In this document: positions 195 to 43,980 of the stretch, piece by piece
Layout: each line of letters opens with the position of its first letter
Numbering within the stretch: the stretch's first letter is position 1
Assembly: GCA_017883615.1 (NCBI GenBank)
Contig: JADGNF010000035.1
Location: forward strand, 1-43,980
Direction: 5' to 3'
DNA from: Candidatus Bathyarchaeota archaeon
GTDB taxonomy: Archaea; Thermoproteota; Bathyarchaeia; Bathyarchaeales; Bathycorpusculaceae
DNA length: 43,980 bases
Notes under the pieces: generated by a model
What the model saw: only the letters and a program-made list of their open reading frames with translations
Databases searched by the model: none
What the model was told of the DNA's origin: nothing
Made by a program: the position numbers and the translations under genes

Positions 195-237
195 TGCCCG
201 TGAAAGTAACTCTAGTTAACTTCCGACTTATTGGACT

Positions 238-1593
238 GTGCAACTGATGAGGAAGACTATATTCAAGAAGCTTGAGGCTCAAGGCTTAATTGCCAACTAC
301 AATCGCCTCCGCAAAAACCTGCCGCCTAAGCTGCCTGACCGTGTGTACATGGTAGATGAAACCTTCCGAGAAGGCATCAAGGCACCAATGGTCTTTCTAA
401 CTTACGTTGAAAAACTTAAGCTCGCTAAGATGATGGATGAAACTGGCATATCTGTCATAAACGTAGGTTTCCCGGGCTTAAACGAGGAAGAAAAGCGCAG
501 CGTCAAGCGGATTGTGAACGAATCTTTCGAGAGAGCTACGTTAACTGCCTCGTCAGCTGCTGCCCGAGCTCACGTTGATGCGTGTTTGGAAGTGGGCATG
601 AAGGAAATTAACATTGAAGCCCCAATTAACGGGTTGAACCTGCAGTATAGGCTAAAGATAAGCAAAGAAGAAGCTGTCAAACGAATTGTGGACAGCGTTG
701 AATATGCAAAGAAACATGGGTTAAAAGTGGATTTCGTGTTGTCTGACGGTAGCAGAACCGCTCTTGAGGATATTTTGATGGTTTTTGAAGCCGCCGCGGG
801 GGCGGGAGCATCAAAACTTGCTATAGCTGACACTGTGGGTTTCCTTAGACCGCTTGCTATGCGTTACTTGATAAGTCATGTTCGTGATGGTCTTTCAGAA
901 GCGATTCGCAAGAAAACTCCTCTTTCTGTACATTGCCACAATGACTTCGGGTTAGCCACCGCGAATACGTTGGCGTCAGTGGAGGAGGGCGCCACTTACT
1001 TGCATACGAGCCTCATCGGATACGGGGAACGTGCTGGTTTAGCTCCATTTGAGGAAGTTGTTGCTGCCTTGGAGTTGCTGTACAACATAGATACCGGTAT
1101 CGATATGGAGCGGATTTACCGGTTAGCTCAACTTACGGAGAAATCGTTTGCTTTGCCCATCCAATTCCACAAACCGATCGTCGGCGACACAACTTTCACT
1201 CACGAAGTTGACGAACACGTGCAGGGCATGTTGGCTCACCCCTTGATGTTTGAGCCTTTTCCCCCTGAAATCGTCGGACGCGAAACCTCACTTTTCGTTG
1301 GCAGAAACACAGGTCAAACCCTTCTTCAGGGACTGCTAGAGAAAGCGGGTATCCGAGCGTCGCCACGGCAAGTTGATGAAATCCTTCGGCACGTGAAGGG
1401 ACCTGCGGAAAGCCTCGACAAAGGCGAAGCCCAAATGACTTTTTATCAGGTGAAGAAGCTACTTAGGGAACTGCAAAAGGGGTTGGTTATGCCTGAGTTT
1501 TGGCGATTGGTAGAGCAGGTGACTCGGCAGAAACCCAAGTTACCTCAACCGGGCGAAGGCGGCGGAAAAGCGCTTACGTCCGTAACAACCTAA
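238..1593 (+). CDS. HMGL-like (DRE-TIM) acyltransferase, isopropylmalate/homocitrate synthase family
   Basis: The 451-residue protein belongs to the DRE-TIM metallolyase fold, which condenses acetyl-CoA with a 2-oxo acid or cleaves such products. The family metal/substrate signature appears as DETFREG (residues 40-46, with D40, R44 and E45), and the metal-binding HxH lies in HCHNDFGLA (from residue 232). LSDGSRT and the glycine-rich region after residue 255 also fit the barrel. The C-terminus is a short helical segment, not the LeuA dimer regulatory domain of about 130 residues, so feedback-regulated isopropylmalate synthase is less likely. Homocitrate-like, citramalate-like or lyase activity cannot be separated by eye. 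The start is GTG at 238; an ATG four codons in (247) is an alternative. It is convergent with the radical SAM gene. Confidence 0.8.
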   Translation: MQLMRKTIFKKLEAQGLIANYNRLRKNLPPKLPDRVYMVDETFREGIKAPMVFLTYVEKLKLAKMMDETGISVINVGFPGLNEEEKRSVKRIVNESFERATLTASSAAARAHVDACLEVGMKEINIEAPINGLNLQYRLKISKEEAVKRIVDSVEYAKKHGLKVDFVLSDGSRTALEDILMVFEAAAGAGASKLAIADTVGFLRPLAMRYLISHVRDGLSEAIRKKTPLSVHCHNDFGLATANTLASVEEGATYLHTSLIGYGERAGLAPFEEVVAALELLYNIDTGIDMERIYRLAQLTEKSFALPIQFHKPIVGDTTFTHEVDEHVQGMLAHPLMFEPFPPEIVGRETSLFVGRNTGQTLLQGLLEKAGIRASPRQVDEILRHVKGPAESLDKGEAQMTFYQVKKLLRELQKGLVMPEFWRLVEQVTRQKPKLPQPGEGGGKALTSVTT

Positions 1594-1614
1594 AATCACA
1601 TTTTTCGGTTTTTC

Positions 1615-2640
1615 CTATTCTAAATATGGTTCCAATTGGTGTTTTGTTTCCACTATTTCCTGATTAGTTAGGTTTCGGGGGTAGTTGTAGATCGGTCCAC
1701 TTGGTTTCTCGTTGTAGAAGGGACGATTGCAGTCTGAACAACCGGAGGTCAAGAAGGGTTTTCCTGCGTCTACAGCATGCGCCAAAACATCTTTTCCAAC
1801 CCCGAAATCGACGATTTGCCCAGCCGGGCTGAAAGTCATATCCTCAAGCCTTCCTTGGGCGTTGACGATGAGGTACCTTGCAAGTTGCACTCGTCTATAA
1901 ACCTCAAGTTGAGGCTGTTTTTTCCTTTCAAGCGTTGTTCCCCGTACAGGTGTGAAAGTGAAGAGACCAGGTAAGACTCCCATGTCAATACATTTTTGTA
2001 GGATCTGAACGGCGTCTTTTTCGGTTTCGCCTAGTCCAACTATGAGGTGTGTACTTACGTTGCCTTCGCCGAAAACTCCGATGGCGGTTCGCAAAAGGAC
2101 AAACTCGTTTTGCCAATTGTAAGGTCCCCCCGCGGCTTCGCCTTTGATTTGGTTGAAGAGTTTCTCTGTTGCAGTATCCAGGGCAATGCCGATTCTGTCG
2201 ACACCTGAGTTGGCGAGGTTCCACATGTTCTGGCTGTTGAGCGGCTGGCAAGAAACGGAAACGGGCACATGAACTTGCTTTTTCAGGGTGTTAACGAATG
2301 TGCAAAGGTCACTAAAAACCTGAGGATAGTTCAGGGCTTGTAAGCAGACTCGCCTAATTTTTCCGGCCTGACAGGCGTTTGCGATTTGTCCAATGACGCT
2401 GTTAACTGAAAACGGCGGCCACGAAACCCGCGAGAGTAATTCAGCTTTACTGTGGCTGTCTCTGGCCTGAGGGCAAAATCCACAGTTCGCTACGCATTTG
2501 CCTGCCTTGTAGGTCATGAGGTAAGCGGTTGTGGGGTCCGCGTCCAGTTTGCCCTCTAGCAGCCCCAATACGATGGCTGTGCCCACGGAGACTCGGATTT
2601 GCTGCATCCCACTTTGTTGGGTTGTGGGTGATTTAGCCAA
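1615..2640 (-). CDS. Radical SAM protein, biotin/lipoyl synthase-like
   Basis: The 341-residue protein has the radical SAM cluster motif CxxxCxxC as CVANCGFC (C49, C53, C56), followed by a TIM-barrel domain with HLIVGLGETEKDA typical of the biotin synthase/LipA branch. A second cysteine pair near the C-terminus, SGCSDCNRPFYNE, lies where sulfur-inserting enzymes of this branch carry an auxiliary cluster ligand. The length and C-terminal CxxC resemble the archaeal two-component lipoyl synthases (LipS1/LipS2), which are usually annotated as biotin synthase-like. That assignment is inference, and no second subunit is visible nearby. It lies 70 bp downstream of the TspO-like gene on the same strand and could be co-transcribed with it. 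Confidence 0.75.
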   Translation of the reverse strand: MAKSPTTQQSGMQQIRVSVGTAIVLGLLEGKLDADPTTAYLMTYKAGKCVANCGFCPQARDSHSKAELLSRVSWPPFSVNSVIGQIANACQAGKIRRVCLQALNYPQVFSDLCTFVNTLKKQVHVPVSVSCQPLNSQNMWNLANSGVDRIGIALDTATEKLFNQIKGEAAGGPYNWQNEFVLLRTAIGVFGEGNVSTHLIVGLGETEKDAVQILQKCIDMGVLPGLFTFTPVRGTTLERKKQPQLEVYRRVQLARYLIVNAQGRLEDMTFSPAGQIVDFGVGKDVLAHAVDAGKPFLTSGCSDCNRPFYNEKPSGPIYNYPRNLTNQEIVETKHQLEPYLE

Positions 2641-2710
2641 AATTTTTCACCACGTACTTATTGATTGAAGGCAAATATTAGCTTAGCCAATATCCACAAG
2701 GAAAATCTGG

Positions 2711-3484
2711 TTACGCTTTCTTTCTGCTTCTGACGATTAGGACAACTGTGGCAATTATTGCGGCGGCCACGACAACTGCGCCCAAGTAAGCGGTATAAAC
2801 GATGCTGGAGACGGCGCTTTGGTTCACAGCGATGCCGACAAACGCCCAAATCACAACCAAACCGTAAGCAAAGTCTTTTCTTGCTGTAACAATCATAATC
2901 GCTACTGCTAAAATTATTGCAGCCGCGAATATGCCCCAAACTGCATCTGCAGATGTCCACTTGACCCATCCAGCCGCGGACAAAGCGGCGGCAACGTCTG
3001 CTGCGGTGGCAACGGTAATCCATGCAAAGTAAATGCTAAGTGGCAAGTGTAGGCAAACCTTCTCTCTTCTTGTAATGTTTGATTTACCGATTTTCAATCG
3101 AATATAAATTGCAGCCAAACATGCCAACAAAACGACAATGGGGATCACGGAGGCAGCAACGTAGTTGTAACCCCAGAGGAAAATCCATATCACGTTGAAT
3201 ACGCTGCTGAGAATGAAAAGCGTGGAGATTTGTTTTTGGAATTCTTTGGACCTGTTGCGAGGTAAAGCTTGGTAAAAGACGAAAACGGCTAGGAACGCGT
3301 AAATTATGCCCCAGATCGCGAAGACGTATCCTGCGGGCGTAATCAATGTAGGATATTGGTTGCTAATTTGAGCTGTCGTTTTTCCGCCCAAAACCGAAGT
3401 GTTGGCTAATCCATTAATTGTCAAAGTAGTGATGAAGGCAATTATGTTTCCAACTTGCAATGCAACTGCTCTTGAAGTCGACAT
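2711..3484 (-). CDS. TspO/MBR-related tryptophan-rich membrane protein
   Basis: The 257-residue integral membrane protein has about seven hydrophobic segments. The stretch PAGYVFAIWGIIYAFLAVF (from about residue 51) matches the conserved start of the longer TspO-like 'tryptophan-rich sensory' proteins. Conserved tryptophans continue at IWGIIY, VIWIFLWGYN, YFAWITVA and GWVKWTS. The family binds porphyrins or other hydrophobic ligands in some members, but the role of this long archaeal form is unknown. The protein ends in a basic tail (RSRKKA), placing the C-terminus in the cytoplasm. The ATG at 3484 is the first in the frame and starts just before the first segment. Confidence 0.7.
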   Translation of the reverse strand: MSTSRAVALQVGNIIAFITTLTINGLANTSVLGGKTTAQISNQYPTLITPAGYVFAIWGIIYAFLAVFVFYQALPRNRSKEFQKQISTLFILSSVFNVIWIFLWGYNYVAASVIPIVVLLACLAAIYIRLKIGKSNITRREKVCLHLPLSIYFAWITVATAADVAAALSAAGWVKWTSADAVWGIFAAAIILAVAIMIVTARKDFAYGLVVIWAFVGIAVNQSAVSSIVYTAYLGAVVVAAAIIATVVLIVRSRKKA

Positions 3485-4024
3485 GATGATATTTTCTTTC
3501 AGCAGTCTGGGCTTATAAGATTTAAGAATTCAGACTCTCCACCCAAAGCGGAAATTAAGATTAATAAAAAGAAAAATGAATAGATGAGTTCTGGTAGAAC
3601 ATAAGCTCTAATTAATTGCCTTTATCACGGATACCTGAAGCCGGTTCCCGCGGAAAGAGCAGTTGAGTTTACTTTGTTTTGCCAGTTTTTGCTTCGTGTT
3701 TTGCTTTCTTTGCCTTGTTCTTTTTTTCCAGAGATGGCATGTAAATTTCACCATGACTATGTTGACGTATGACGCTTAAAAGACTTTTCACAAAATCCCA
3801 TATGAATGTGGACAAACGGTTAGTTTCCGGGGGTAAAATGGCGCCACTTATTAAAGTTTCGAGTAAAATGATCATATGATATTCGTGTTATAGATTTTTG
3901 CTCTCATTCTCAGCGGATACACAATTTCAGTCGAAATTTAACGCGAAATAATCCATTTAATCGGGCCGTGGGATAATTCTTAATTATGGGCTGTTAATCA
4001 CATAATCAACCTTGAGGAATCACT
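3485..4024. other. Intergenic region between the divergent TspO-like and ilvC genes
   Basis: Apart from the possible basic peptide, I see no gene here. The sequence is AT-rich and must hold the TspO promoter (near 3485-3530) and the ilvC promoter. For ilvC, AT-rich stretches near 3950-3995 could serve as TATA elements, and TTGAGGA about 10 bases before the ATG at 4025 is a plausible ribosome binding site. No repeats or strong hairpins were noticed. Confidence 0.4.
3669..3740 (-). CDS. Possible small basic peptide
   Basis: This is a 23-residue lysine-rich peptide starting MPSLEKKNKAKKAKHEA. A GGTGA Shine-Dalgarno-like sequence sits about 8 bases upstream of the ATG at 3740. The same frame stays open upstream to 3875, but those 45 residues look less protein-like. 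It could be a small nucleic-acid-binding peptide or chance; conservation would decide. Confidence 0.3.
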   Translation of the reverse strand: MPSLEKKNKAKKAKHEAKTGKTK

Positions 4025-5092
4025 ATGGTTAAGATAGATTTCGGTGGCGTAAAAGAAGATGTCATCACCAGAAAAGAATTCACAATCCAAATGGCACAGA
4101 AAATCCTGAAAAACGAGGTTGTTGTCTCTCTTGGATACGGCATTCAAGGTCAAGCTCAATCACTCAACATGCGTGACCAAGGAATAAAAGTAATCATTGG
4201 ACAGGAAAAAGAAGGCGTGTTCAAAAAGGAATGGGACAAGGCAGTCGCAGACGGATGGAAACCAGGCGAAAATCTGTTCCCTATGGAAGAAGCAGCTAAA
4301 AAAGGAACAATTAAACTGTTCCTGCTCACCGATGCAGCTCAAAAAGCTGTATGGCCAAAAGTCAAAGCAACTCTCAAAAAAGGAGACGCGCTCTACTTTA
4401 GCCACGGCTTTAGCATCGTCTACAAAGAACAAACAGGCGTTATCCCACCCAAAGACATTGACGTAATTCTTGTCGCACCTAAAGGCTCAGGCACATCTGT
4501 GCGTAGAAACTTTGTTGACGGAAGCGGCATTAACTGTAGCTTTGCAGTCTTCCAAGACGCCACAGGTAAAGCCGAAGAACGCGCTAAAGCGCTTGGTATC
4601 GCCATTGGCGGAGGATACCTCTTTCCAACCACATTCGAGAAAGAAACCTACAGTGACCTAACAGGCGAACGAGGCACATTAATGGGCGCACTCGCAGGCA
4701 TCCTAGAAGCCCAATACAAAACCTTGCGTGAACATGGACACAGCCCGAGCGAGGCATTTAACGAAAGTGTCGAGGAACTCACGCAAAGTTTAATCCGCCT
4801 TGTTGATGAAAACGGGATGGACTGGATGTACTGCAACTGCAGCGAAACCGCACGTATTGGCGCGCTACGCTGGAGAAGCCGTTTCCGTGAAGCAACTCAA
4901 CCAGTGTTTGATTCTCTCTACGAGCTTGTTGCTGCTGGTGAAGAAACCCGCATCGTTCTCGAAAAGAGCAAAGCACCAGACTACCGCCAGAAACTCGCTG
5001 ACGAACTCAAAGAAATGGGTAACAGCGAAATGTGGCGCGCTGGCGCAACGGTTCGTTCCCTGCGTCCAGGCAAGCAAAATAAACCTGAATAA
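4025..5092 (+). CDS. ilvC: Ketol-acid reductoisomerase, fungal/Bacteroidetes type
   Basis: This enzyme converts 2-acetolactate or acetohydroxybutyrate to the dihydroxy acid in valine/isoleucine synthesis, using NADPH and Mg2+. The nucleotide-binding loop is GYGIQGQAQS (near residues 38-47). The catalytic C-terminal domain has SDLTGERGTLMG, HSPSEAFNESVEELTQS and CSETARIGALRW. These motifs, VAPKGSGTSVR and the ending W(R)AGATVRSLRPG match yeast Ilv5 and Bacteroidetes enzymes far better than the usual archaeal class I form (which starts with a short MKVYYD-type strand and has GYGSQGHA). The 355-residue length is near the class I norm. It stands alone, with no ilvB, ilvH or ilvD in the window. 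A T-rich terminator follows. Confidence 0.95.
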   Translation: MVKIDFGGVKEDVITRKEFTIQMAQKILKNEVVVSLGYGIQGQAQSLNMRDQGIKVIIGQEKEGVFKKEWDKAVADGWKPGENLFPMEEAAKKGTIKLFLLTDAAQKAVWPKVKATLKKGDALYFSHGFSIVYKEQTGVIPPKDIDVILVAPKGSGTSVRRNFVDGSGINCSFAVFQDATGKAEERAKALGIAIGGGYLFPTTFEKETYSDLTGERGTLMGALAGILEAQYKTLREHGHSPSEAFNESVEELTQSLIRLVDENGMDWMYCNCSETARIGALRWRSRFREATQPVFDSLYELVAAGEETRIVLEKSKAPDYRQKLADELKEMGNSEMWRAGATVRSLRPGKQNKPE

Positions 5093-5093
5093 A

Positions 5094-5126
5094 CTATCTT
5101 TCTTTTTCTTTTTGTTTCTATTTTCT
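5094..5126 (+). terminator. T-rich terminator after ilvC
   Basis: Immediately after the ilvC stop there is a pyrimidine tract with several T5-T6 runs and no hairpin. Archaeal RNA polymerase terminates at such runs. The next promoter begins about 12 bp later. Confidence 0.55.
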
Positions 5127-5138
5127 GCCAAGCTAATC

Positions 5139-5147
5139 TTTTATATG
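5139..5147 (+). promoter_or_regulatory. TATA box for the ArsB-like transporter
   Basis: TTTTATATG lies 29-37 bp before the TTG start at 5176, so the transcript would begin only a few bases before the start codon. This near-leaderless arrangement fits the absence of a clear Shine-Dalgarno sequence and supports the TTG start. Confidence 0.5.
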
Positions 5148-5175
5148 CGAATAGAATGCATGCTCAGTAACACAT

Positions 5176-6549
5176 TTGGGACTTGACGCATTGAACTGGA
5201 CTGCAGCCGCCGCAATAGCAATCTTCGCTTTTACGCTGTTTTTAATGATTAAGCGCCCACGGGGAATCCGCATAGGCTACGCAGCCGCGGTTGGCGCCGC
5301 CGCATCGCTGCTCTTGGGCACAGTTTCACTTGGTCAGGCTGCTCAGTCGTTTCTGAACATCTGGGATGCCGCTTTGGCTTTCATCGGAATCGTCGCTTTG
5401 TCAGTGACTTTGGATGCAATGGGTTTCTTCAAGTGGGCAGCGCTACGCGTCGTGCGGCTTGCTGGCGGAAACGGTTTGAAACTCTACTTCTACGTCGCTT
5501 TACTAACTGCCGCGGTAAGCATCCTATTTGCCAATGATAGCGCCGTTTTGATTCTAACACCAATCGTGCTCGAAATCGTGACTTGCATAGGCATAAGTTC
5601 AGACGGGCGTTTAGCTTACTTGTTCAGCGCAGGTCTAATTGCAGATACTTCAGCTATGCCGCTGATAACGAGTAACCCAATTAACATATTGAGCGCCGAC
5701 TTCTTCCACTATAGTTTCATTCAGCACCTGATTTTTATGGGTCCAATTGCAGTTGCAACAATCACAAGCAGCCTTTTCCTGGTTTACTTTTTCTTCCGCA
5801 GAAAAATCCCCAAAACCTACAATGTTGCCGCTGTCGCGGAATTGAATTTGGGGAAGCAACAGATTTCTCCTGGTTTGCTCAAAGTAAGCGTTGCCACATT
5901 GGTCGCGATTGACGTAGGTTACGTTTTGACTTCTCTTTGGCGGGTTCCGGTTTCATTGGTGATTTGTTCCGGAGCCATCTTCATGATTTTCGTCTATTGG
6001 GCAAGTATCAGGAAAACGGTTTCTGTAGATGGCGAAAAGAAAGGTCTGAACCGTTTGGCGAGAGAGATTAACTGGGACATTATCCTGTTCATGCTAAGCA
6101 TCTTTCTGGTTGTGCAGGGGTTGGAAAACGCTGGCGTTGTGGAGTTGCTGGCTTCTGCGCTCATCAAAACGAGCGCGTTGCCTTCCGTTCTGGGCATATT
6201 CGTTCCCAGCATGGTGATTACGGTTGGCGCGAGTTTCATGAATAATTGGCCCATGACGATTCTGGGGTTGCTGTCGGTGAATCATGTAGCAGCGGTTGCG
6301 GGGTTTGGTGGAACTGCGTTAACTGGGCTGATTTTCAGCAATGTAATTGGGAACAATTTGGGTCCGCACTTTTTCCCACTGGGTTCGTTAGCCATTCTAA
6401 TGTGGCTGGAGATAATGCGCAAGAAAGGCGTGAATATAAGCCTCAAAGATTATCTCAAAGTTGGAGCAGTGGTGTCCATTGCGGAAGTTGCAATTGCATC
6501 GCTGGTTCTGTGGGCTGAACTCAGTTCCGGTTTCACTCTGAGTCTATAA
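5176..6549 (+). CDS. arsB: ArsB/NhaD-family (ion transporter superfamily) membrane transporter
   Basis: This is a 457-residue polytopic membrane protein with about 11 hydrophobic segments. The two inverted-repeat hairpin motifs of the ion-transporter superfamily are recognisable. The first half has SILFANDSAVLILTPIVLEI, near-identical in pattern to the ArsB motif FANDGAALILTP. The second half has SFMNNWPMTILGLL followed by NVIGNNLGPHFFPLGSLA. ArsB exports arsenite, with or without an ATPase subunit; related NhaD proteins exchange Na+ for H+. No arsR, arsA or arsC is nearby, so the substrate is not certain. The start is TTG at 5176. Confidence 0.75.
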   Translation: MGLDALNWTAAAAIAIFAFTLFLMIKRPRGIRIGYAAAVGAAASLLLGTVSLGQAAQSFLNIWDAALAFIGIVALSVTLDAMGFFKWAALRVVRLAGGNGLKLYFYVALLTAAVSILFANDSAVLILTPIVLEIVTCIGISSDGRLAYLFSAGLIADTSAMPLITSNPINILSADFFHYSFIQHLIFMGPIAVATITSSLFLVYFFFRRKIPKTYNVAAVAELNLGKQQISPGLLKVSVATLVAIDVGYVLTSLWRVPVSLVICSGAIFMIFVYWASIRKTVSVDGEKKGLNRLAREINWDIILFMLSIFLVVQGLENAGVVELLASALIKTSALPSVLGIFVPSMVITVGASFMNNWPMTILGLLSVNHVAAVAGFGGTALTGLIFSNVIGNNLGPHFFPLGSLAILMWLEIMRKKGVNISLKDYLKVGAVVSIAEVAIASLVLWAELSSGFTLSL

Positions 6550-6662
6550 TCTATGAAGAGTTATGATTTTGCATATCTCTCGTTTTTATGTGCCGAGCAG
6601 AGATGACCTTTTCAAAATCTAAGTTCGAATAGTTTAGAACAAATGTTTGGGGGGTTTTGGCT

Positions 6663-6818
6663 CATTAACTTGGCGCGGATTGGAAAAGGAACAGGGGGAT
6701 GAGGGGAATTCCGCGTTACGTTAACTCCTAACCCGCCAAACCTTTTGATGCAACGTTTGATGGCTTCAGGGCACTAAGTATTGGTTCTCTTCAAAGACTA
6801 ATAGAGATTTGTGACTGT
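6663..6818 (+). repeat. Copy 1 of a duplicated, apparently structured element (possible ncRNA)
   Basis: This element aligns with the copy at 7069-7238. Shared parts, in order, are CTTGGCGCGG (6669-6678), a GGAAAA stretch, GATGAGGGGAAT, CCGCG (6711-6715), an identical 44-nt block at 6727-6770, and TTGTGACTGT at 6809-6818. Nested complementarity is present: TTGGC (6670-6674) pairs with GCCAA (6735-6739), and CGCGG (6674-6678) with CCGCG (6711-6715). Stems kept while loops vary suggest an RNA. No continuous reading frame is shared by the copies. I cannot assign a known RNA family. Confidence 0.75.
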
Positions 6819-7068
6819 GCCCGGGCAGCAACAGCTCGGTGATTAATTCAACTTGGAAGAGCCAGTAGACTTAGGTGCGGTTCGAAGACCTGCGGTCCCA
6901 CAGGAAGCACTCATGATCAGCCAACAAAGCAAAAGCTTTTCGCTAACAATACTCAATAAACCAAATTCAACTGTTGTGAAGATTTATTTGTTATCTTCTC
7001 TAAAAAACAAATGCATTATGCTTTTGGAAGAATTTTGGTCCTAAAAATTATTGCTTGGCGGATCTGGT
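6819..7068. other. Spacer between the two repeat copies
   Basis: No convincing gene lies here. A 63-codon frame at 6853-7044 has no family features and no ribosome binding site. A short hairpin, CCTG...CAGG, and GGTTCGAAGACC near 6880 recall a tRNA T-arm, but the rest does not fold as a tRNA. Confidence 0.4.
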
Positions 7069-7238
7069 GGCTGTCTTGGCGCGGGGTGGAAAAACTACCT
7101 TACTGGGGAATGAGGGGAATCTGTTTTCCGCGTGGTCGCCAGCGCCTAACCCGCCAAACCTTTTGATGCAACGTTTGATGGCTTCAGGACACTGAATACC
7201 ATTTACGGCTGTTTTTACTTATAAAAACTTGTGACTGT
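7069..7238 (+). repeat. Copy 2 of the duplicated structured element (possible ncRNA)
   Basis: This is the second copy, about 410 bp downstream in the same orientation. TTGGC (7076-7080) can pair with GCCAA in the identical block at 7145-7188, and CGCGG with the CCGCG near 7128-7132, as in copy 1. The loop between the inner stem arms is longer and differs in sequence, yet the GAATGAGGGGAAT core is kept. A second TTGGCGG at 7055-7061 offers an alternative pairing with CCGCCAA. The element ends 147 bp before the ABC transporter ATPase gene, so a long-leader role is also possible. Confidence 0.75.
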
Positions 7239-7384
7239 ATCTACATTACAACAAACTACAGTTTCCACTTCACCCGCATTTTGGCTTGTTTCTTACAAAG
7301 CCCCTTTTTCCTTGTGGCTGCTAGCTCACAGTCACATATCCTTAATTTGCGAAGAAAAATTCCTATCAATACGCAGGCTCATTT

Positions 7385-8383
7385 ATGTCGGACATTATCA
7401 CCGTCAAAGATCTAGTTTTGGTATACGGAGATGGAACCAAAGCAGTCGACAACATCTCTTTCACAGTGCAAGATGGCGAATTCTTCGGGTTTCTCGGACC
7501 CAACGGTGCAGGCAAAAGCACCACTATCAAAGTCCTCACGACGCTCCTGAGAAAAACCTCAGGTTCCGCTACCGTAGCAGGCTACGATGTGGAAAAAGAG
7601 GCAGGCGCCATCCGCAAAGTCATAGGCGTTCAAAGCCAAGAAACAACCGTCGATGGAGACCTCACTGGCAGAGAAAACCTTGAACTCCAAGGTCACTTCC
7701 ACCAAATGAAAACCAGCGAAATCAAACAACGTGTCAACGAACTGCTCAAACTCGTGGAGCTCGAAAGCGTCGCTGAAAAACGAGCCCGAAACTATTCCGG
7801 CGGCATGAAAAAACGCTTAGACCTTGCCACCGCATTGGTTCACAAACCCAAATTGCTATTTTTAGACGAACCCACAACAGGGTTGGATCCACAGTCACGG
7901 TCAACCATTTGGACATACTTGCAGAAACTCAATAAAGAAGATGGAATAACCATTTTCTTGACAACCCAATATTTGGAGGAAGCCGACAAACTCTGTAAAC
8001 GACTTTCAATTATTGATTTCGGGAAAATCGTGGCAAGCGGCAGCCCTACCGAGCTCAAGCATGAGGTCGGCGCGGATAGCATCCGAGTCGCGCTGGAGAA
8101 CTGCGACAAAGACAGGGCCAAAGCAAAAGAAATAATCAAAACCATGAGTGGCGTCTCCGAAATCATAGATTCGGAGGACTGCATTAACGTTTACGCTAAA
8201 AACGCAGGGCAACTCATTGCGGACATAGTGCGGGCCCTTGACAGCAGCGACATCCGCTTGTCTTCAGTGACGTTTTCGTCGCCTTCACTAGATGACGTAT
8301 TCATGAAACACACCGGCAGGCGGATACGTGCCGAAGACCTCGTCAAGGCTCCAAGCGCTATGTTCGGAGGGCGGAGGCGGTAA
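7385..8383 (+). CDS. ABC-2 type exporter ATP-binding protein (DrrA-like)
   Basis: This 332-residue ATPase carries Walker A GPNGAGKST (residues 38-46), signature NYSGGMKKRLDLA, Walker B LLFLDEPTTGLDP and the switch region TIFLTTQYLEEAD. The C-terminal extension of about 90 residues after residue 235 (ending near SPSLDDVFMKHTGR) is typical of the DrrA/daunorubicin-resistance subgroup, which pairs with a single ABC-2 permease to export lipids, drugs or polysaccharide. The permease gene follows after 2 bp, so the two form an operon. The start is ATG at 7385 with no strong Shine-Dalgarno. The substrate is unknown. Confidence 0.92.
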   Translation: MSDIITVKDLVLVYGDGTKAVDNISFTVQDGEFFGFLGPNGAGKSTTIKVLTTLLRKTSGSATVAGYDVEKEAGAIRKVIGVQSQETTVDGDLTGRENLELQGHFHQMKTSEIKQRVNELLKLVELESVAEKRARNYSGGMKKRLDLATALVHKPKLLFLDEPTTGLDPQSRSTIWTYLQKLNKEDGITIFLTTQYLEEADKLCKRLSIIDFGKIVASGSPTELKHEVGADSIRVALENCDKDRAKAKEIIKTMSGVSEIIDSEDCINVYAKNAGQLIADIVRALDSSDIRLSSVTFSSPSLDDVFMKHTGRRIRAEDLVKAPSAMFGGRRR

Positions 8384-37663: not shown

Positions 37664-38629
37664 ATGAAAAGAGGAATGTTAGCCATATTAGTCGTAAGTC
37701 TATTATTACTTGTACCCATTCTTTCAATAACACAAGTGAAAGCACAAACAACCGGAAATTGGATAACCACCTCCGCAATAACCGACCGGAATACTGGTCA
37801 AGCCCTAGATCCAAACGGAATTCCTGCTGGGGCAGACCTAGAAATATCCATAACAATCCAAGTAACAACTTCCAGCCCATCTACCACTCTAAAACTTTCC
37901 ACATCAATGGATCATCCTTCTCAAGGTAACTATTGGGAGATTCACGGAAGCTACGGCGGCATCGACACATCCACATACAACCCCAACACACAATCCGTGA
38001 GCTTTAAGCAAACCATTGGGACACTCACAATATCTTGCTTTGGTAAAATAAAACAAGACATAACTCAAACCGTAATTTCGGGAATAACTTTCGACAAGGC
38101 AGTCGCTAAAGACCTCGTTACACTCACTGACCAGACAAACAATCAGCTGGACAAAATTAGCGTAAACATCGTGGACGCTGCCATCACCGACTTCTCCAAC
38201 AAGTTGGCTTCCGCTAGAGCAGAGTACCAGACCTTGAGCGATCAAGCCATAGACCAAGCTTACCTTAACCTTTACCAAACCGTAATTAACCAAGCCACAA
38301 GCCAAGCAAACTCCGGACTAGTGGACAGCGCCATCGGCACCCTAGACCAGCTTTCACAAGCCGAAAGCGCAGCCGCGCCTTCCACAACAAGCACTCCTAT
38401 AGAGGCTACTCTATTTCTGCCAGCCGTAATTGTGTTAGTAATTATCGTCGTTTTGGTCGCCTTCTTGATGGTGAAAGCCCGCGGAAAAGTAAGCTATGAC
38501 AAATTGGTAATTGAAGATCAAATCAAAGACTTAGAAGGGTTAACTCTCCGAGCCTCAAAAGTCGACAGAAACTTAACTGTAAGCTTGGAGAGCATAAAGG
38601 ACAGGTTGAAGAACCTGGTTGAGGTGTAA
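37664..38629 (+). CDS. Signal-anchored surface protein with cytoplasmic coiled-coil tail
   Basis: In this 321-residue protein, a signal peptide (residues 1-27, likely cut after VKA) is followed by a strand-rich, Ser/Thr-rich outer domain (about 30-145) and a helical outer stalk (145-235). A short Ser/Thr linker leads to one membrane segment (249-270) and a 50-residue cytoplasmic tail predicted as coiled coil (VIEDQIKDLEGLTLRASKV). I know no named family. Its stop lies 5 bp before the probable ACG start of the FtsZ/tubulin-like gene, and the end of this gene supplies that gene's Shine-Dalgarno. An anchor linking envelope and filament is a natural hypothesis. Confidence 0.75.
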   Translation: MKRGMLAILVVSLLLLVPILSITQVKAQTTGNWITTSAITDRNTGQALDPNGIPAGADLEISITIQVTTSSPSTTLKLSTSMDHPSQGNYWEIHGSYGGIDTSTYNPNTQSVSFKQTIGTLTISCFGKIKQDITQTVISGITFDKAVAKDLVTLTDQTNNQLDKISVNIVDAAITDFSNKLASARAEYQTLSDQAIDQAYLNLYQTVINQATSQANSGLVDSAIGTLDQLSQAESAAAPSTTSTPIEATLFLPAVIVLVIIVVLVAFLMVKARGKVSYDKLVIEDQIKDLEGLTLRASKVDRNLTVSLESIKDRLKNLVEV

Positions 38630-38634
38630 ACGCT

Positions 38635-41328
38635 ACGAGACCATATCAAAACACAGTTCAAGTAATCGGTCTTGGATCAGCAGGAACAAACATCGTAGAA
38701 GTCTTCATGACTAGCAAGAAAACCATGGAAATGCTAGAGAGCGACATCTCACGCGTTTCACTTCTAGCTATCGACATCGCGGATCCTGAAATCAGAGCAC
38801 TACTAGAAACCAACGAACAAGTCATGAAGGCCATGGTTAAAGCAGGCATTCCAAAAGAACGGATGCGTTTAGTTGCACAATCAATAAAGTTCCCCACCGC
38901 CGAAACAATGTTTGACTTCGTCAATCTAAAATTCAACGAATATCTAGTAAACGAAGGCGCCAAAATGGGTGATTTTACCCCTTGGTTAACTTCCACAATG
39001 GCTATACCTCCTATGGCTGGAGGTGCTGGCAGAAGAAGAGCACTGGCTAAAGCCATCTACGCTTTAAACTACTACCAACTTGGCATCGTGAAGAGCGCAA
39101 TTAACACTTTCAAAGAACAGGCCTTCTCCTCAATCGTCACGCCAACAGTAGTTTTGTTTTTCGGTCTAGGCGGGGGAACTGGAAGTGGCGTATTCTTTGA
39201 CTTCGCAAAACACCTCCGGAAGGTCCTCGGCTCCAGCGTGCCAATAATTGCATTTGTAATTTCTCCATGCGGTGGCGACGATCCTCCAGCGAAAGGATGC
39301 TCATCATTTACTGCCATGAACGAACTTTCATTGTTCTTGAACAAGGATTACAACGAATACATCACAAAGACGTTTGGCGAATGCTACAGAAACCCCCTCA
39401 ACGCACTGATTTACTTGCCGCTGTTACCTGCTTACTCAAAGATAGGTAACATAGTTTCTGCACGCCGAGAAATGGATGAAATGGTCGTTGACATGCTCTA
39501 TATGCTAATGGACTTCGATCTTGCAGACTTAATGGGCGGCATCGGAACCGAGGTGGGATTAGGCAACAACTTTGTACATACCCTCGGCTCAGTGAAAGTG
39601 ATGTACCCCGTTGAGGACTACATTCTTGCACTCAAGTTGTACTTCGAAAGACTAGAAATACTCTATAATCTTCGAAAAGAAAAACTAGCCATAATGGATG
39701 CGATTCGAGACATATTCATCCAGACCAATGGTGACCTTGTCGAACTCTATAGAAAATACCTCATAAAAATTGGCGAATACGTTGACGAAGAGTTTGAGAG
39801 CAGAGTCAACAATGTAATCCACAGCAATCCAAAACTAGATGAAGACTACATCCTACATGTTCGAGCAATCGAGGATCAAATGGAAGCTTGGCTCAACGAA
39901 ATAATGAAGTTCCTGACAACCATCAAGTTGATGACAAGGACCGGACCAATTGAAGAAACAATCGTTAACCTGATGCTGCGCAAAGAAGGTTCAAGAAAAA
40001 TTGACAATCTCGAAGCCTTGCTACGGTCACTTCAGAAGACACACTTAGATTTCCCGGAAAGGAAGAACGAAATATTTGAGCGGCTAAAACACTTGATACC
40101 GAGCAGCCAGATTTTCACTTTGAGGCAAAAGAGGCTCATGGAAGACTTCATGGACCTCGCTGACATGACTGAAAAGTCTCTAGCTACGCTAAAGTTTTAT
40201 GACGAAAGCAGGTACCTCACAGAAGCGGTTATTGGATTCTATGAAGTCATGCCTGAATCCGAGGCGGAACTTGCAGAATTGCGGAATATTCGGTCAGAGC
40301 TCTCTACGTTGTATCTAATGATGCAGTTAATGCTCAGGACGCCATCTGACGAAAGAAAGATGATAGATGAACACATGACGTACTTAAACGAAGTAAAATC
40401 CATATTCCTCATGAAAAAATCTGATGCTGAAAACGGACTGCTACTTGTTCAGGAAGCTATTCAACGCAAAGATTTCGATAAGAGGAAGGCCGAACGTGAT
40501 CTTAAGAGAACTTTCGGTTCCAAGCGCTATGCCACAGAACAACATACAAGTGTTGATCGCGACTTAAAGAGGCTAGAAGAAGAACAAGCAATGGCACTTG
40601 ATGAACTTAACCGGATGGATCAGGTTGTTATGCTTTATGATGTGCTTGCGACTCAGATTGACCCAGTATCGGAATATCGGAAGATGCTCAATAAGATTGC
40701 AGACTTAACTGAAGAGTACAACAACAAGATTTCTGACATTATTCAGCCCAAGAAGTACTTTGAGCGTTCAACAGAGCTTACCCAAGCAGAGCAAATGAAG
40801 ATCATTTTCAAGATTCTAATGGAACAAGAGGACACATTGACTAAGAAAGCGATTCTTAAGCAGGTCCTAGACATGGCACACTTCAAAGACTACATGAAGA
40901 GCCTGATACGGATTTTCAAAACACCAAGCGTTTTGGGCTTCAAGCCGACATACAAGACAGATTACCTCTGGGTTACCGTTTCCACGCCAGAAGACCTTTG
41001 GAGTGAGGACTTAACGCAGGAAATCTACACTTCTTTGGCTGGCTACGTTACCAGCGAAGTGTCACGGACTATAACAGTTCGCGTGGTCGACAGCCGGGAT
41101 GAATGGACTACCAGAATCATGGTTGTAGCGGGCAGAGGAAAACCTGAAGACATGGAAGCATTTGACGAAATGCAGTTGCTCTATACCAAATCTAGCTCTT
41201 TCGAAAGACATCTCAGCCGCTCCTACTTGCTTGAACATGGCGTCGCAGCAGTGCCGCTAATTAACGACATCAATCACAACAACAACCTTAACGGTAAGAA
41301 ACTAACCGCTTCCGATGAAAAACCTTAG
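38635..41328 (+). CDS. Large FtsZ/tubulin-superfamily GTPase with a long helical insertion
   Basis: The protein has about 897 residues from a probable ACG start. The GTPase domain holds T1 GLGSAGTN (12-19), a T2/T3 region (SLLAIDIAD; AGGAGRRRALAKA), T4 signature GLGGGTGSG (177-185) and a T7 loop DFDLADL (293-299) equivalent to NVDFADV of FtsZ, keeping the aspartates that drive GTP hydrolysis across a filament. About 430 mostly helical, charged residues follow (324-764). Then comes a segment resembling the FtsZ C-terminal domain (776-835: YLWVTVSTPEDLW...RIMVVAGRG). The first canonical ATG (38707) would delete T1 and is not the start. FtsZ is about 360-400 residues, so this is far larger. Its closest described relatives are probably the divergent long tubulin-like/FtsZ-like families of bacteria and archaea. 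Confidence 0.85.
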   Translation, partial: TRPYQNTVQVIGLGSAGTNIVEVFMTSKKTMEMLESDISRVSLLAIDIADPEIRALLETNEQVMKAMVKAGIPKERMRLVAQSIKFPTAETMFDFVNLKFNEYLVNEGAKMGDFTPWLTSTMAIPPMAGGAGRRRALAKAIYALNYYQLGIVKSAINTFKEQAFSSIVTPTVVLFFGLGGGTGSGVFFDFAKHLRKVLGSSVPIIAFVISPCGGDDPPAKGCSSFTAMNELSLFLNKDYNEYITKTFGECYRNPLNALIYLPLLPAYSKIGNIVSARREMDEMVVDMLYMLMDFDLADLMGGIGTEVGLGNNFVHTLGSVKVMYPVEDYILALKLYFERLEILYNLRKEKLAIMDAIRDIFIQTNGDLVELYRKYLIKIGEYVDEEFESRVNNVIHSNPKLDEDYILHVRAIEDQMEAWLNEIMKFLTTIKLMTRTGPIEETIVNLMLRKEGSRKIDNLEALLRSLQKTHLDFPERKNEIFERLKHLIPSSQIFTLRQKRLMEDFMDLADMTEKSLATLKFYDESRYLTEAVIGFYEVMPESEAELAELRNIRSELSTLYLMMQLMLRTPSDERKMIDEHMTYLNEVKSIFLMKKSDAENGLLLVQEAIQRKDFDKRKAERDLKRTFGSKRYATEQHTSVDRDLKRLEEEQAMALDELNRMDQVVMLYDVLATQIDPVSEYRKMLNKIADLTEEYNNKISDIIQPKKYFERSTELTQAEQMKIIFKILMEQEDTLTKKAILKQVLDMAHFKDYMKSLIRIFKTPSVLGFKPTYKTDYLWVTVSTPEDLWSEDLTQEIYTSLAGYVTSEVSRTITVRVVDSRDEWTTRIMVVAGRGKPEDMEAFDEMQLLYTKSSSFERHLSRSYLLEHGVAAVPLINDINHNNNLNGKKLTASDEKP

Positions 41329-41331
41329 TGG

Positions 41332-42459
41332 CTAATCAGTTAAGACCTTTATGAGGTCTTGCCACTCTTTTTCTTTTATGTAACCGTTTTTCTCCGCGTA
41401 AACTTTTATTTCCTTTGCTTTCTTATCTGCTGACTCAACCATCTCAGCCAAGTCAAAACCTCCAACAAACAAGATGAGGTCTATTCGGTCGCTCAAATCC
41501 TCAACATATATGGGTTCGCTCACGTGGACAGACTTGAGACTTGTTTTTTCATTAAACCATTCTTCAACCCAAAATTCGATTTGGCTTTGTGAAAGTTTCT
41601 CTTTCAGATGGCGTGGTGCACGGACAAGGACGTAAAGCATGGTCGCCGTGGACATGTCGAACTGGATAAAGGGTCTGATCAATGTGCTGTCAAGTATGTT
41701 TTTGAATGAACCGTAGATTTTTAGGCTGGCTCCGGTGGCTACAAGTGCGGTGAACATTTTAAGATTAAATGATTTGGATAACTCGAGAAACTCTTGATTG
41801 AATTCTTCTTTTTCTAACGCCAACTCTATGACGTAGTTAAGAACGCGGTTTCCTTTGAGGACTGAGCCTTTTCTATCTACGCCGACGTAGTTTTCGAGGG
41901 CTTCTCTTTCTATCAGGATTTGTGTGAGCCCGTTTGTCATGCATTTTGCCATGGACCAAAGTGTATTGAATTGGGCATCCGCTGGCTGAAGATGAGACGG
42001 TACAATTGCGAATGCTACGGAATTTACATTCCCCTCTTGGAAGCGGGCAGTTAAGTCAGGTAATAGAGCACTCCCCACCCCTTCCCATAAAGATGCCACC
42101 ATAATGGCTCCATATAGTTCGTCGATGGGTTTGCTTTTCAACTTCTCAACGATCGCGTCGTGTTCTGCGATGTATTTTTGGACGTTGAACCAGTAGTGGG
42201 TATCAGCTTTTTCGTCTATACCAATGGTTTCGTTGTTTTCTTTGGTTGTTTTTTTCGATTTGGATTTTCCTTGTTTGGTTTTTTGTACGAAAAATTTTAG
42301 GAGTTCTTCGTTTTCGTTTATGTCGGCGCTTTTGAGGAGAATTTGAGAAGAATAGTCGCCGATTGAAATTATTGCGCGCTGAGGAAACATTGGTTTTAGC
42401 ATTGATATGTGTTTTTGTATACTAGCGTTTAAGTCAAGAGTCACTTTTTCAGCGGACAT
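41332..42459 (-). CDS. Degenerate FtsZ/tubulin-fold protein, probable partner of the large GTPase
   Basis: This 375-residue protein follows the FtsZ order with degraded motifs. A T1-like strand-turn, AIISIGDYSSQIL (29-41), has lost the glycine loop. A T4-like VASLWEGVGSALLPDL (121-136) stands where GGGTGSG would be. These are followed by AFAIVPSHLQP, a conserved-type helix (NTLWSMAKCMTNGLTQILIE), a T7-like region (SFNLKMFTALVATG) lacking the aspartates, and a C-terminal-domain-like segment (MLYVLVRAPRHL...IDLILFVGGF, 274-334). Residues 60-85 are a Lys-rich linker. It probably cannot hydrolyse GTP. It is convergent with the large GTPase, 3 bp apart. The homology is my inference from motif order and should be tested by structure prediction. 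Confidence 0.65.
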   Translation of the reverse strand: MSAEKVTLDLNASIQKHISMLKPMFPQRAIISIGDYSSQILLKSADINENEELLKFFVQKTKQGKSKSKKTTKENNETIGIDEKADTHYWFNVQKYIAEHDAIVEKLKSKPIDELYGAIMVASLWEGVGSALLPDLTARFQEGNVNSVAFAIVPSHLQPADAQFNTLWSMAKCMTNGLTQILIEREALENYVGVDRKGSVLKGNRVLNYVIELALEKEEFNQEFLELSKSFNLKMFTALVATGASLKIYGSFKNILDSTLIRPFIQFDMSTATMLYVLVRAPRHLKEKLSQSQIEFWVEEWFNEKTSLKSVHVSEPIYVEDLSDRIDLILFVGGFDLAEMVESADKKAKEIKVYAEKNGYIKEKEWQDLIKVLTD

Positions 42460-42522: not shown

Positions 42523-43980
42523 TTGGCCTCAGAGAAGAAACGGTTTAGAGATCATTTCAAGTTAGGAAAATCCAAAGAGCCTAAGGAACCTCAGGAATCC
42601 AAAGCTGAACCAGACCAATCGACGCCGCTAAAGAAGCAGCGCAAGTCTTACTTAGACTCCCTTAGGGACGTTACTGTTGGGTCCTACGAGAAACGCATGC
42701 AGAAGGAAAACAAAGACTTAGCCAACGAGGGTAGAGGGGCTCGAATCGCAGCGTTTGTTTTGACTTTAATAAGCATGGCGCTTGTTATGTCGTTAATTCC
42801 CTTTTTACCGCAGCCTTTACCGATTTTGGTAGCTGTATTGATTGCGTTTGCGGTTTACTTTAGCCCTGCGGTTGGCATGTCTGTGGGTTCTCTTTTCATC
42901 GTTTTTAGCATTCTGTATCAATTGTCCCTAGTTGATTTCATCGCAATGCTCGGTTCAACTATGGTTCGTGTGTTGTTCATTTCATTGTTAATTTTCTTCT
43001 TTGTGGCGCTTGCCATTCGTTTCCGAACTTACGAAAACGCTATAGGAATAAACCTGGGCATAATCGCAGCTGTACTGTTGTTTTCCAATTTCACCTTCTT
43101 TATGGCAATTCCGCTGCTTTTGACCGTGGCGATTCTTTTCAAGAGAACGCAGGCGGGATTGGCTTTCGGTTATTATCTAATGATTTCCGTGCCGATTATG
43201 GTGATGCAGTACTTCACTCACATCCTGACGATAACCCGCACGGATTTCTGGAATGACCCAACAGCTGTTACTCCAATCTATACTTCCTTATCCTCAGCTT
43301 TTACGAGTGCACAAACCGGGGTTGCCCATTTCAAACTATTTGATTTATCGCAGACGCTAGTATCGATTGGCAACAATGTCATTGAGGTACCGCCTGTTCA
43401 ATCTCACACTGTTCTACAGGCAGCGAACCAGTACGTTAACTCGTTCCCGGGTGTGGTTTTACTTATTGTGATTGTTGGGGGTTTCGTTTGGGCTATTTCA
43501 TTTATTTTGCCTTGGCTTACAAGTAACCTTAATTTGAGAAAGGGTGGAGTCGTTTCCCCGATTTTAGCTGCTGCGGGCTTAACTGCGTTGTTTTTCTTGT
43601 TAGCGTCTTTTCTTCAGGGTCCGCTGTCCTTTTCGATGAAAGTTAGCTCTACAAACATGGTGCTTGGGGTTTTGTCTTCGTTCGCTTTTACAATTCCACT
43701 TGCCATGCTTAACTTTGCGCCTAAAAGGCGCGAGGAAACCGAAGAAAATGTCGGGACAATAACAAGCAAAGTTGAAGGTCTAATGACGAAGGTATCAGCT
43801 TTTGAAGATACAATGGGAAAAGTCAAAGGCCATGTGCCGGTAGATGTACGTGATTCGGAAATCAGGTTGAACTTGATCAAAGATCGACTCGCTGCCTTTC
43901 TGGGTCAAGTGCAGGATCAAAGGCTCAGTCTACCTGAGACTGTTAGGATGCTTGAAGAGTTGAAAGTTAATTTGGGCCAA
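42523..43980 (+). CDS. Polytopic membrane protein with cytoplasmic coiled-coil C-terminus (runs off window)
   Basis: The frame is open for 486 codons to the window end, from a TTG at 42523 (the nearest upstream stop is TAA at 42502). Residues 1-72 are charged and cytoplasmic (KKRFRDHFKLGKSKEPKEP). About six to seven membrane segments (76-232) follow, then an outer loop of about 75 residues (235-308) and about three more segments (310-397). A cytoplasmic, heptad-like region (400-486+) has KVEGLMTKVSAFEDTMGKV and RLNLIKDRLAAFLGQVQDQ. No transporter motif is recognised. The C-terminal part resembles in style the cytoplasmic tail of the protein at 37664, so both may contact the tubulin-like filament (inference). 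It is divergent from the degenerate FtsZ-fold gene. Confidence 0.75.
   Translation, partial: MASEKKRFRDHFKLGKSKEPKEPQESKAEPDQSTPLKKQRKSYLDSLRDVTVGSYEKRMQKENKDLANEGRGARIAAFVLTLISMALVMSLIPFLPQPLPILVAVLIAFAVYFSPAVGMSVGSLFIVFSILYQLSLVDFIAMLGSTMVRVLFISLLIFFFVALAIRFRTYENAIGINLGIIAAVLLFSNFTFFMAIPLLLTVAILFKRTQAGLAFGYYLMISVPIMVMQYFTHILTITRTDFWNDPTAVTPIYTSLSSAFTSAQTGVAHFKLFDLSQTLVSIGNNVIEVPPVQSHTVLQAANQYVNSFPGVVLLIVIVGGFVWAISFILPWLTSNLNLRKGGVVSPILAAAGLTALFFLLASFLQGPLSFSMKVSSTNMVLGVLSSFAFTIPLAMLNFAPKRREETEENVGTITSKVEGLMTKVSAFEDTMGKVKGHVPVDVRDSEIRLNLIKDRLAAFLGQVQDQRLSLPETVRMLEELKVNLGQ

Follow-up and report, generated by a model that had tools for sequence, protein, structure and literature searches.

A diverged FtsZ/tubulin homologue that has lost its GTP loops, paired with an FtsZl1-type GTPase in a membrane-linked cassette of Bathyarchaeia

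A 375-residue protein, here called C, is by its sequence profile a distant and diverged homologue of the GTPase core of FtsZ and tubulin; it lacks the GTP loops of that superfamily, and its gene travels with that of an FtsZl1-type GTPase, B, in which the loops are kept. Both are encoded in the window, i.e. the whole stretch of 43,980 nucleotides of Candidatus Bathyarchaeota DNA that we analysed, a complete contig of a metagenome-derived genome, as parts of a conserved five-gene membrane-linked cassette, A-B-C-D-E, that recurs across the phylum. A preliminary description had taken C for a degenerate FtsZ-fold partner of an active GTPase and had proposed that the two form a mixed filament, or that C is a cap or a nucleator. 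Homology, motif loss and pairing bear out the picture of a degenerate superfamily protein dedicated to a neighbouring active GTPase; the choice of a mixed filament, cap or nucleator goes further than the data establish, and we weigh it below.

C is a distant homologue of tubulin and FtsZ

Gene C is confirmed as a real open reading frame of 375 aa, and its loop segments lie as follows.

41332..42459, minus strand: gene C, 375-aa degenerate FtsZ/tubulin homologue, ATG start
42334..42375, minus strand: T1-like segment of C, residues 29-42, AIISIGDYSSQILL, placed by the alignment of 25 relatives and a low-posterior HHalign match to FtsZ T1
42067..42096, minus strand: T4-like segment of C, residues 122-131, ASLWEGVGSA replacing GLGGGTGSG, placed by the alignment, the PDB profile and HHalign
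41767..41799, minus strand: probable T7-like segment of C, residues 221-231, NQEFLELSKSF, placed by the alignment and low-posterior HHalign

Relatives are needed to recognise the homology. The C protein of the window alone matches Pfam PF00091 with E=0.0055 (17.4 bits, below the 33-bit cut-off), and as a single-sequence query of genome contigs it returned no matches, where an alignment query returned ten loci. We aligned 25 members taken from f1 (the family of the window) and f27, both of the same class; 13 of them match PF00091, the best at 4.3e-5, and at E<=0.01 it is the one Pfam family matched. The profile built from them matches 83 PDB sequences, the best 60 of which are all tubulin, CetZ, FtsZ or RepX, with AtubB2 at the top (E 1.3e-6) and CetZ-type structures among the others (3zid, 3.7e-6; 4b45, 1.1e-4). 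The confident match spans S4-T4-H4-S5-H5-S6, about residues 101-195 (~95 residues); past S6, HHalign continues through T7 and the C-terminal domain at low posterior, which suggests a resemblance to the C-terminal domain of FtsZ. Outside its own family, the profile selects an FtsZ-like protein of 317-334 aa, picked up in 20 genomes that all come from a single further family of the phylum. Its sequence includes AGKAGSA, a motif that has been reported in thaumarchaeal FtsZ; the profile-profile comparison of C with the thaumarchaeal FtsZ-like protein (HHalign E=1.2e-5 over 286 columns) is the best match outside the C family. At the loci of this kind in family f29 (L182-L196), a T1-like GLGGAGSK is intact beside the degenerate T4, as has been reported in Nitrosopumilus. 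Structure prediction did not add to this evidence: the AlphaFold model of C, from an 11-sequence alignment, has pLDDT 44 and pTM 0.37 and is too poor for fold comparison, and searches with it in Foldseek and VIA-align gave unrelated rows that are uninformative on the fold.

The loops themselves are degenerate throughout. At the T1 position the window has IGDYSSQ, and relatives usually have IGEYPxK (the family version of residues 29-42 being AIICIGEYPxKILL); GxGxxGxN is missing in 25/25. At T4 the consensus is SSLWDGVGSA, mostly WDGVGSA and in f27 SEGV/SEGSxS, and GGGTG[ST]G is intact in 0/25. NxDxxD, which in T7 of FtsZ carries the aspartates of NxDFAD, was not found in the C sequences of the 25-member alignment. 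The probable T7 site reads ELxE in f1, with E223 and E226 invariant in 17/17, and DxxK/R in f27, on a mapping onto the FtsZ DxxD that is of low posterior in HHalign and uncertain by ~1 residue; the acidic pair is thus absent from f27, and in distant C proteins it is unrecognisable. The preliminary description was accurate in giving C no GxGxxGxN loop (all 25 have the IGDYSSQ/IGEYPxK type of segment) and WEGVGSA in place of GGGTGSG, which is read in the window and degenerate in every aligned relative. Its statement that the T7 aspartates are missing is literally true, but passes over the glutamates, or the aspartate with lysine or arginine, at the likely site. The FtsZ order of strands and helices that it described is found from S4 to S6; the C-terminal-domain-like segment appears only in the low-posterior HHalign.

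C is under purifying selection. In four close pairs it gives dN/dS values of 0.08-0.22, so that C is not a decaying gene. Conservation is higher in the half from H7 to the C-terminal domain (0.60) than in the GTP-loop half (0.53), and C evolves faster than B. We dropped the idea that C is a recent paralogue of B: the B and C profiles do not match (probability 0.5%), and C is therefore not recognisably derived from B. It is nearer to tubulin/CetZ and the thaumarchaeal FtsZ-like proteins.

B is an FtsZl1-type GTPase with an apparent ACG start

The neighbouring gene has the following features.

38635..41328, plus strand: gene B, 897-aa FtsZl1/Tubulin_2-type GTPase with T1, T4 and T7 intact and a long helical insertion
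38635..38637, plus strand: ACG, the codon at which gene B apparently starts
38621..38626, plus strand: GAGGTG, which overlaps the end of gene A, precedes the ACG by 8 bases and may be a Shine-Dalgarno sequence

B of the window matches PF13809 at 3.7e-12 (46.6 bits, cut-off 27), and 8/10 B members match the same family, the best at 3.9e-14; the remaining two are truncated fragments. GLGxxGxN, GGG[TS]GSG and a T7-like DxxD are each present in 29/29 members, and the GTPase part aligns with Bathyarchaeal FtsZ, T7 included (HHalign E=1.4e-7). An FtsZ-like C-terminal domain in B was considered and dropped, as it scored no better than a reversed control. The AlphaFold model of B, from 9 sequences, has pLDDT 49.7 and is too poor for fold comparison; its structure matches include FtsZ/tubulin rows with probability 0.92-0.96 and E-values >0.08, and its best-scored part is formed by predicted helices at about residues 326-760, which fits an extended coiled-coil middle region.

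Where does B begin? The P-loop, GLGSAGTN, lies outside the open reading frame that starts from ATG 38707; it is found upstream, after the apparent ACG at 38635. The N terminus thus lies 24 codons upstream of that ATG, and the reading frame is conserved there. At the start position, 16/17 f1 relatives have ACG and the 17th (L120/G103) has ATG, and in 14/16 of the ACG genomes no ATG, GTG or TTG occurs from the upstream in-frame stop to the ACG; relatives outside f1 mostly start with ATG. These comparisons make a conserved non-canonical start codon likely, and if it is real, it is an unusual conserved initiation codon; our literature search found no paper on ACG start codons in archaea. A call from ATG 38707 loses the P-loop, so that automated annotation would give an active GTPase a defective look. 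In other words, the neighbour does deserve the name of active GTPase that it was first given, with all three loops intact, provided that the P-loop upstream of ATG 38707 is counted as part of it. A frameshift or stop readthrough fusing A to B was also considered and dropped, given that the frame relation of A to B varies between genomes. At one locus (L201 of genome G527, 5484-8167), B is split into two ORFs of 427 and 482 aa in a cassette that is otherwise intact; Makarova and Koonin (PMC2875224) have reported that in S. solfataricus a transposon interrupts an FtsZl1 gene.

B and C occur together, within a membrane-linked cassette

Whether B and C co-occur was set beforehand as a test that could refute their pairing, and the pairing came through it. 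Among 256 genomes of the class, C is present in 37 and B in 39, with both in 36, C alone in 1 and B alone in 3; in the 90-genome family, each is present in 26, of which 25 are common (Fisher p=6e-20 for the family and 3e-39 for the class, phylogeny not corrected). The exceptions are few in kind: the genes of the C-only genome (G122) and of one B-only genome (G103) are at contig ends, and the cassette of a second B-only genome (G250) holds a much more diverged C. Only in G210 was B present and no C found. Within family f1, canonical FtsZ is present in 5/27 cassette carriers vs 33/63 non-carriers (p=0.005, phylogeny not corrected). Replacement of FtsZ by the cassette was nevertheless dropped as an explanation, since those five carriers keep canonical FtsZ and the p value is uncorrected for phylogeny.

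Three further genes accompany the pair.

37664..38629, plus strand: gene A, membrane anchor of 321 aa, with an N-terminal signal-like hydrophobic segment, an external part, one C-terminal TM helix and a short cytoplasmic tail
42523..43980, plus strand: gene D, polytopic membrane protein, cut by the contig end
36639..37565, plus strand: gene E, 308 aa, no TM

B and C have no TM segments, and they lie tail to tail: B ends at 41328, and 3 bases separate the two stop codons, the convergent arrangement that had been described. Full-length relatives of D range from 742 to 1001 aa; their N half has multiple TM segments, and their C half is soluble. E is possibly PH-like, on a weak bacterial-PH match (E=0.066) of one distant relative; it stands before A in the window and after D in f27 and one f1 relative. 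The order A, B, inverted C, D holds in f1 and f27 wherever the contig allows. Elsewhere in the phylum, the cassette recurs in five genomes that belong to other families and have a strong B: one has A-B-inverted C-D-E (D and E assigned by position), and the other four have co-directional A-B-D-C-E, with the last gene given by position and, in one, beyond the contig edge. The C proteins of these five are more degenerate and join the C profile at an HHalign probability of 98.7% (E=2.3e-16, 243 columns). The most distant C proteins, in which T1-T4 are no longer recognisable, match C within residues 148-268. Additionally, distant C proteins at three loci (L201 10377-11390, L109 1953-3002 and L108 3405-6287) have a zinc-ribbon-like N terminus with paired Cys motifs, and the one B with no C, that of G210, is zinc-ribbon-like at its C terminus (CPNC...CSEC); these ends hint at a possible fusion.

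No vWA domain was matched in A, C, D or E, and OmpA, kinase and P-loop GTPase domains were found in none of the five genes. An anti-phage defence system was rejected, the best PADLOC match (E=0.0068) being partial and not convincing, and repeats and tRNAs in the region offer nothing notable.

How C might act on B

We tentatively favour, with a little less than even confidence, a reading in which C is a nucleotide-blind subunit that docks on the GTP face of B as a cap, a nucleator or a regulator of the GTPase site. The homology of C, the loss of T1 and T4 in 25/25 and the retention of the B loops in 29/29 argue for it, as do the pairing by Fisher test and the purifying selection on C. On this reading C would no longer bind GTP and would be the dedicated partner of the GTP-binding B, in a five-gene membrane-linked system with A and D in the membrane and E possibly at its surface. 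At the membrane, B would most likely assemble in a GTP-dependent way into protofilaments or short oligomers, and C would use its lower side (H7-T7-H8 and the C-terminal part) to dock on the exposed GTP face of B; this side is favoured because the half from H7 to the C-terminal domain is the more conserved one and because residues 148-268 match the most distant C proteins. Lacking a nucleotide face, C would allow no nucleotide-dependent joining of a further subunit above it, and since none could join there, C might cap or nucleate B assemblies or set their length or turnover. In f1, the acidic T7 site of C may speed hydrolysis by B; in f27, the K/R site may hold B in the GTP state. The difference is suggestive because there is a precedent in tubulin, in which the T7 residues E254 of alpha and K254 of beta decide across the interface whether hydrolysis is switched on or off (PMC13394414). 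Against docking we count the B without C in G210, the pLDDT-44 model of C with no tubulin-like match, the low-posterior mapping of T7, and an acidic pair that is not kept in f27 and is unrecognisable in distant C proteins. Being convergent, C is not co-transcribed with B in these genomes, which together with the faster evolution of C disfavours an obligate stoichiometric heterodimer.

The pair belongs to a five-gene membrane cassette, and C may therefore bind another of its proteins instead. It is plausible, if distinctly doubtful, that C acts as a scaffold or an adaptor: it would retain the tubulin fold without meeting B filaments any longer, would link the soluble half of D, the tail of A or E elsewhere, and would be present with B only since the cassette operates as one unit. 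The five genes travel as a set and C often adjoins D; the very distant C proteins with no recognisable T1-T4 have gained a CxxC-type N terminus resembling a zinc ribbon, and the thaumarchaeal FtsZ-like proteins are another degenerate group with no demonstrated role in a polymer (PMC3684127). However, it is the half bearing the lower polymer face that is more conserved in C, and it is B with which C co-occurs almost perfectly, in a genome-wide tally that covered these two genes. The mixed filament implied by the comparison with paired tubulins, stoichiometric as in alpha/beta-tubulin, we consider unlikely. An active/inactive pair is what it calls for, and tubulin heterodimers do contain one non-hydrolysing interface (PMC13394414); yet both tubulin subunits bind GTP, whereas C keeps neither T1 nor T4, and one of the two longitudinal interfaces of such a filament would therefore be without nucleotide. 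The sizes are also mismatched, 897 aa with a large insertion against 375 aa, and the two genes are transcribed in separate directions.

Two other accounts concern C itself. That it has no tubulin fold and shares only a Rossmann-like S4-S6 segment would suit a confident match of only ~95 residues, the poor AlphaFold model and the low posterior of the C-terminal-domain alignment, but we think it very improbable: the best 60 of the 83 PDB matches come from many depositors and all belong to one superfamily, PF00091 is the sole Pfam match at E<=0.01, the matched part follows the S4-T4-H4-S5-H5-S6 order, and the alignment to the thaumarchaeal FtsZ-like protein runs over 286 columns at E=1.2e-5. That C is a decaying, functionless paralogue is hardly credible; its motifs are lost and it evolves faster than B, but its dN/dS of 0.08-0.22, residues invariant over 25 genomes and an adjacency conserved across families all speak against it.

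Relation to known systems

B resembles the FtsZl1/Tubulin_2 (PF13809) proteins of Makarova and Koonin (2010; PMC2875224), for which the paper describes the same N-terminal FtsZ-like domain, long helical or coiled-coil region and C-terminal domain, with membrane-protein neighbours and a proposed membrane-remodelling role, as in the cassette here. The cassette differs from those systems in that its five genes gave no vWA, OmpA, kinase or P-loop GTPase domain. The part of the paper available holds no mention that we found of a dead FtsZ/tubulin homologue such as C, and in it T6-H7 could not be placed for the FtsZl1 family, whereas a T7-like DxxD is recognisable in B. The thaumarchaeal FtsZ-like protein Nmar_1262, with a degenerate T4 (AGKAGSA) and a T7 reported lost, formed no polymer when expressed alone in yeast (PMC3684127). 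It resembles C in these two loops, but keeps its T1 (GLGGAGSK), has ~320-335 aa and has no reported FtsZl1 partner, whereas C has lost T1 and is bound to the cassette. Alpha/beta tubulin and the Asgard AtubA/AtubB (PMC13394414) are likewise paired superfamily members, in which an acid or a lysine in T7 sets hydrolysis; unlike B and C, both partners bind GTP and are similar in size and sequence. Archaeal FtsZ1/FtsZ2 and CetZ belong to the same superfamily as C, but keep their GTP loops. In the literature searched (supplementary files lay outside the search) we found no description of the B-C pair, and none of any biochemistry of the FtsZl1 family, whose function was predicted in 2010.

If C regulates B by direct contact, archaea would possess a dead subunit of the tubulin superfamily that serves a single GTPase and is conserved far beyond one lineage, and FtsZl1 function becomes testable with two soluble proteins. 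Such a contact would bear on the origin of paired tubulins and on the cell biology of archaea in which most carriers show no canonical FtsZ. It is possible, although we hold the idea with clear reservation, that the cassette is a cytomotive or membrane-remodelling system found throughout this archaeal phylum. Its FtsZl1 GTPase would then be under the control of an obligate, nucleotide-blind subunit of tubulin fold, which would provide the catalytic T7 loop, or obstruct it, from only one side. One-sided control of this kind would be a third pairing mode of tubulin-superfamily proteins, besides homopolymers and two-GTP heterodimers.

Variant relatives

Several relatives depart from the common form. 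Frameshifts break B, C and D of one cassette (L122 of genome G104, 236-7365), which reflects either joint decay or an error-prone assembly. C has a repetitive Pro/Lys/Thr-rich C-terminal tail at L026 (5917-6189), and in several other g12 relatives it is 80-220 residues longer than usual. Finally, a 3874-base contig (L037, JAEOSF010000110.1) of a Ca. Borrarchaeum yapensis MAG encodes a C that is 47% identical to that of the window; this is likely a misbinned Bathyarchaeial contig.
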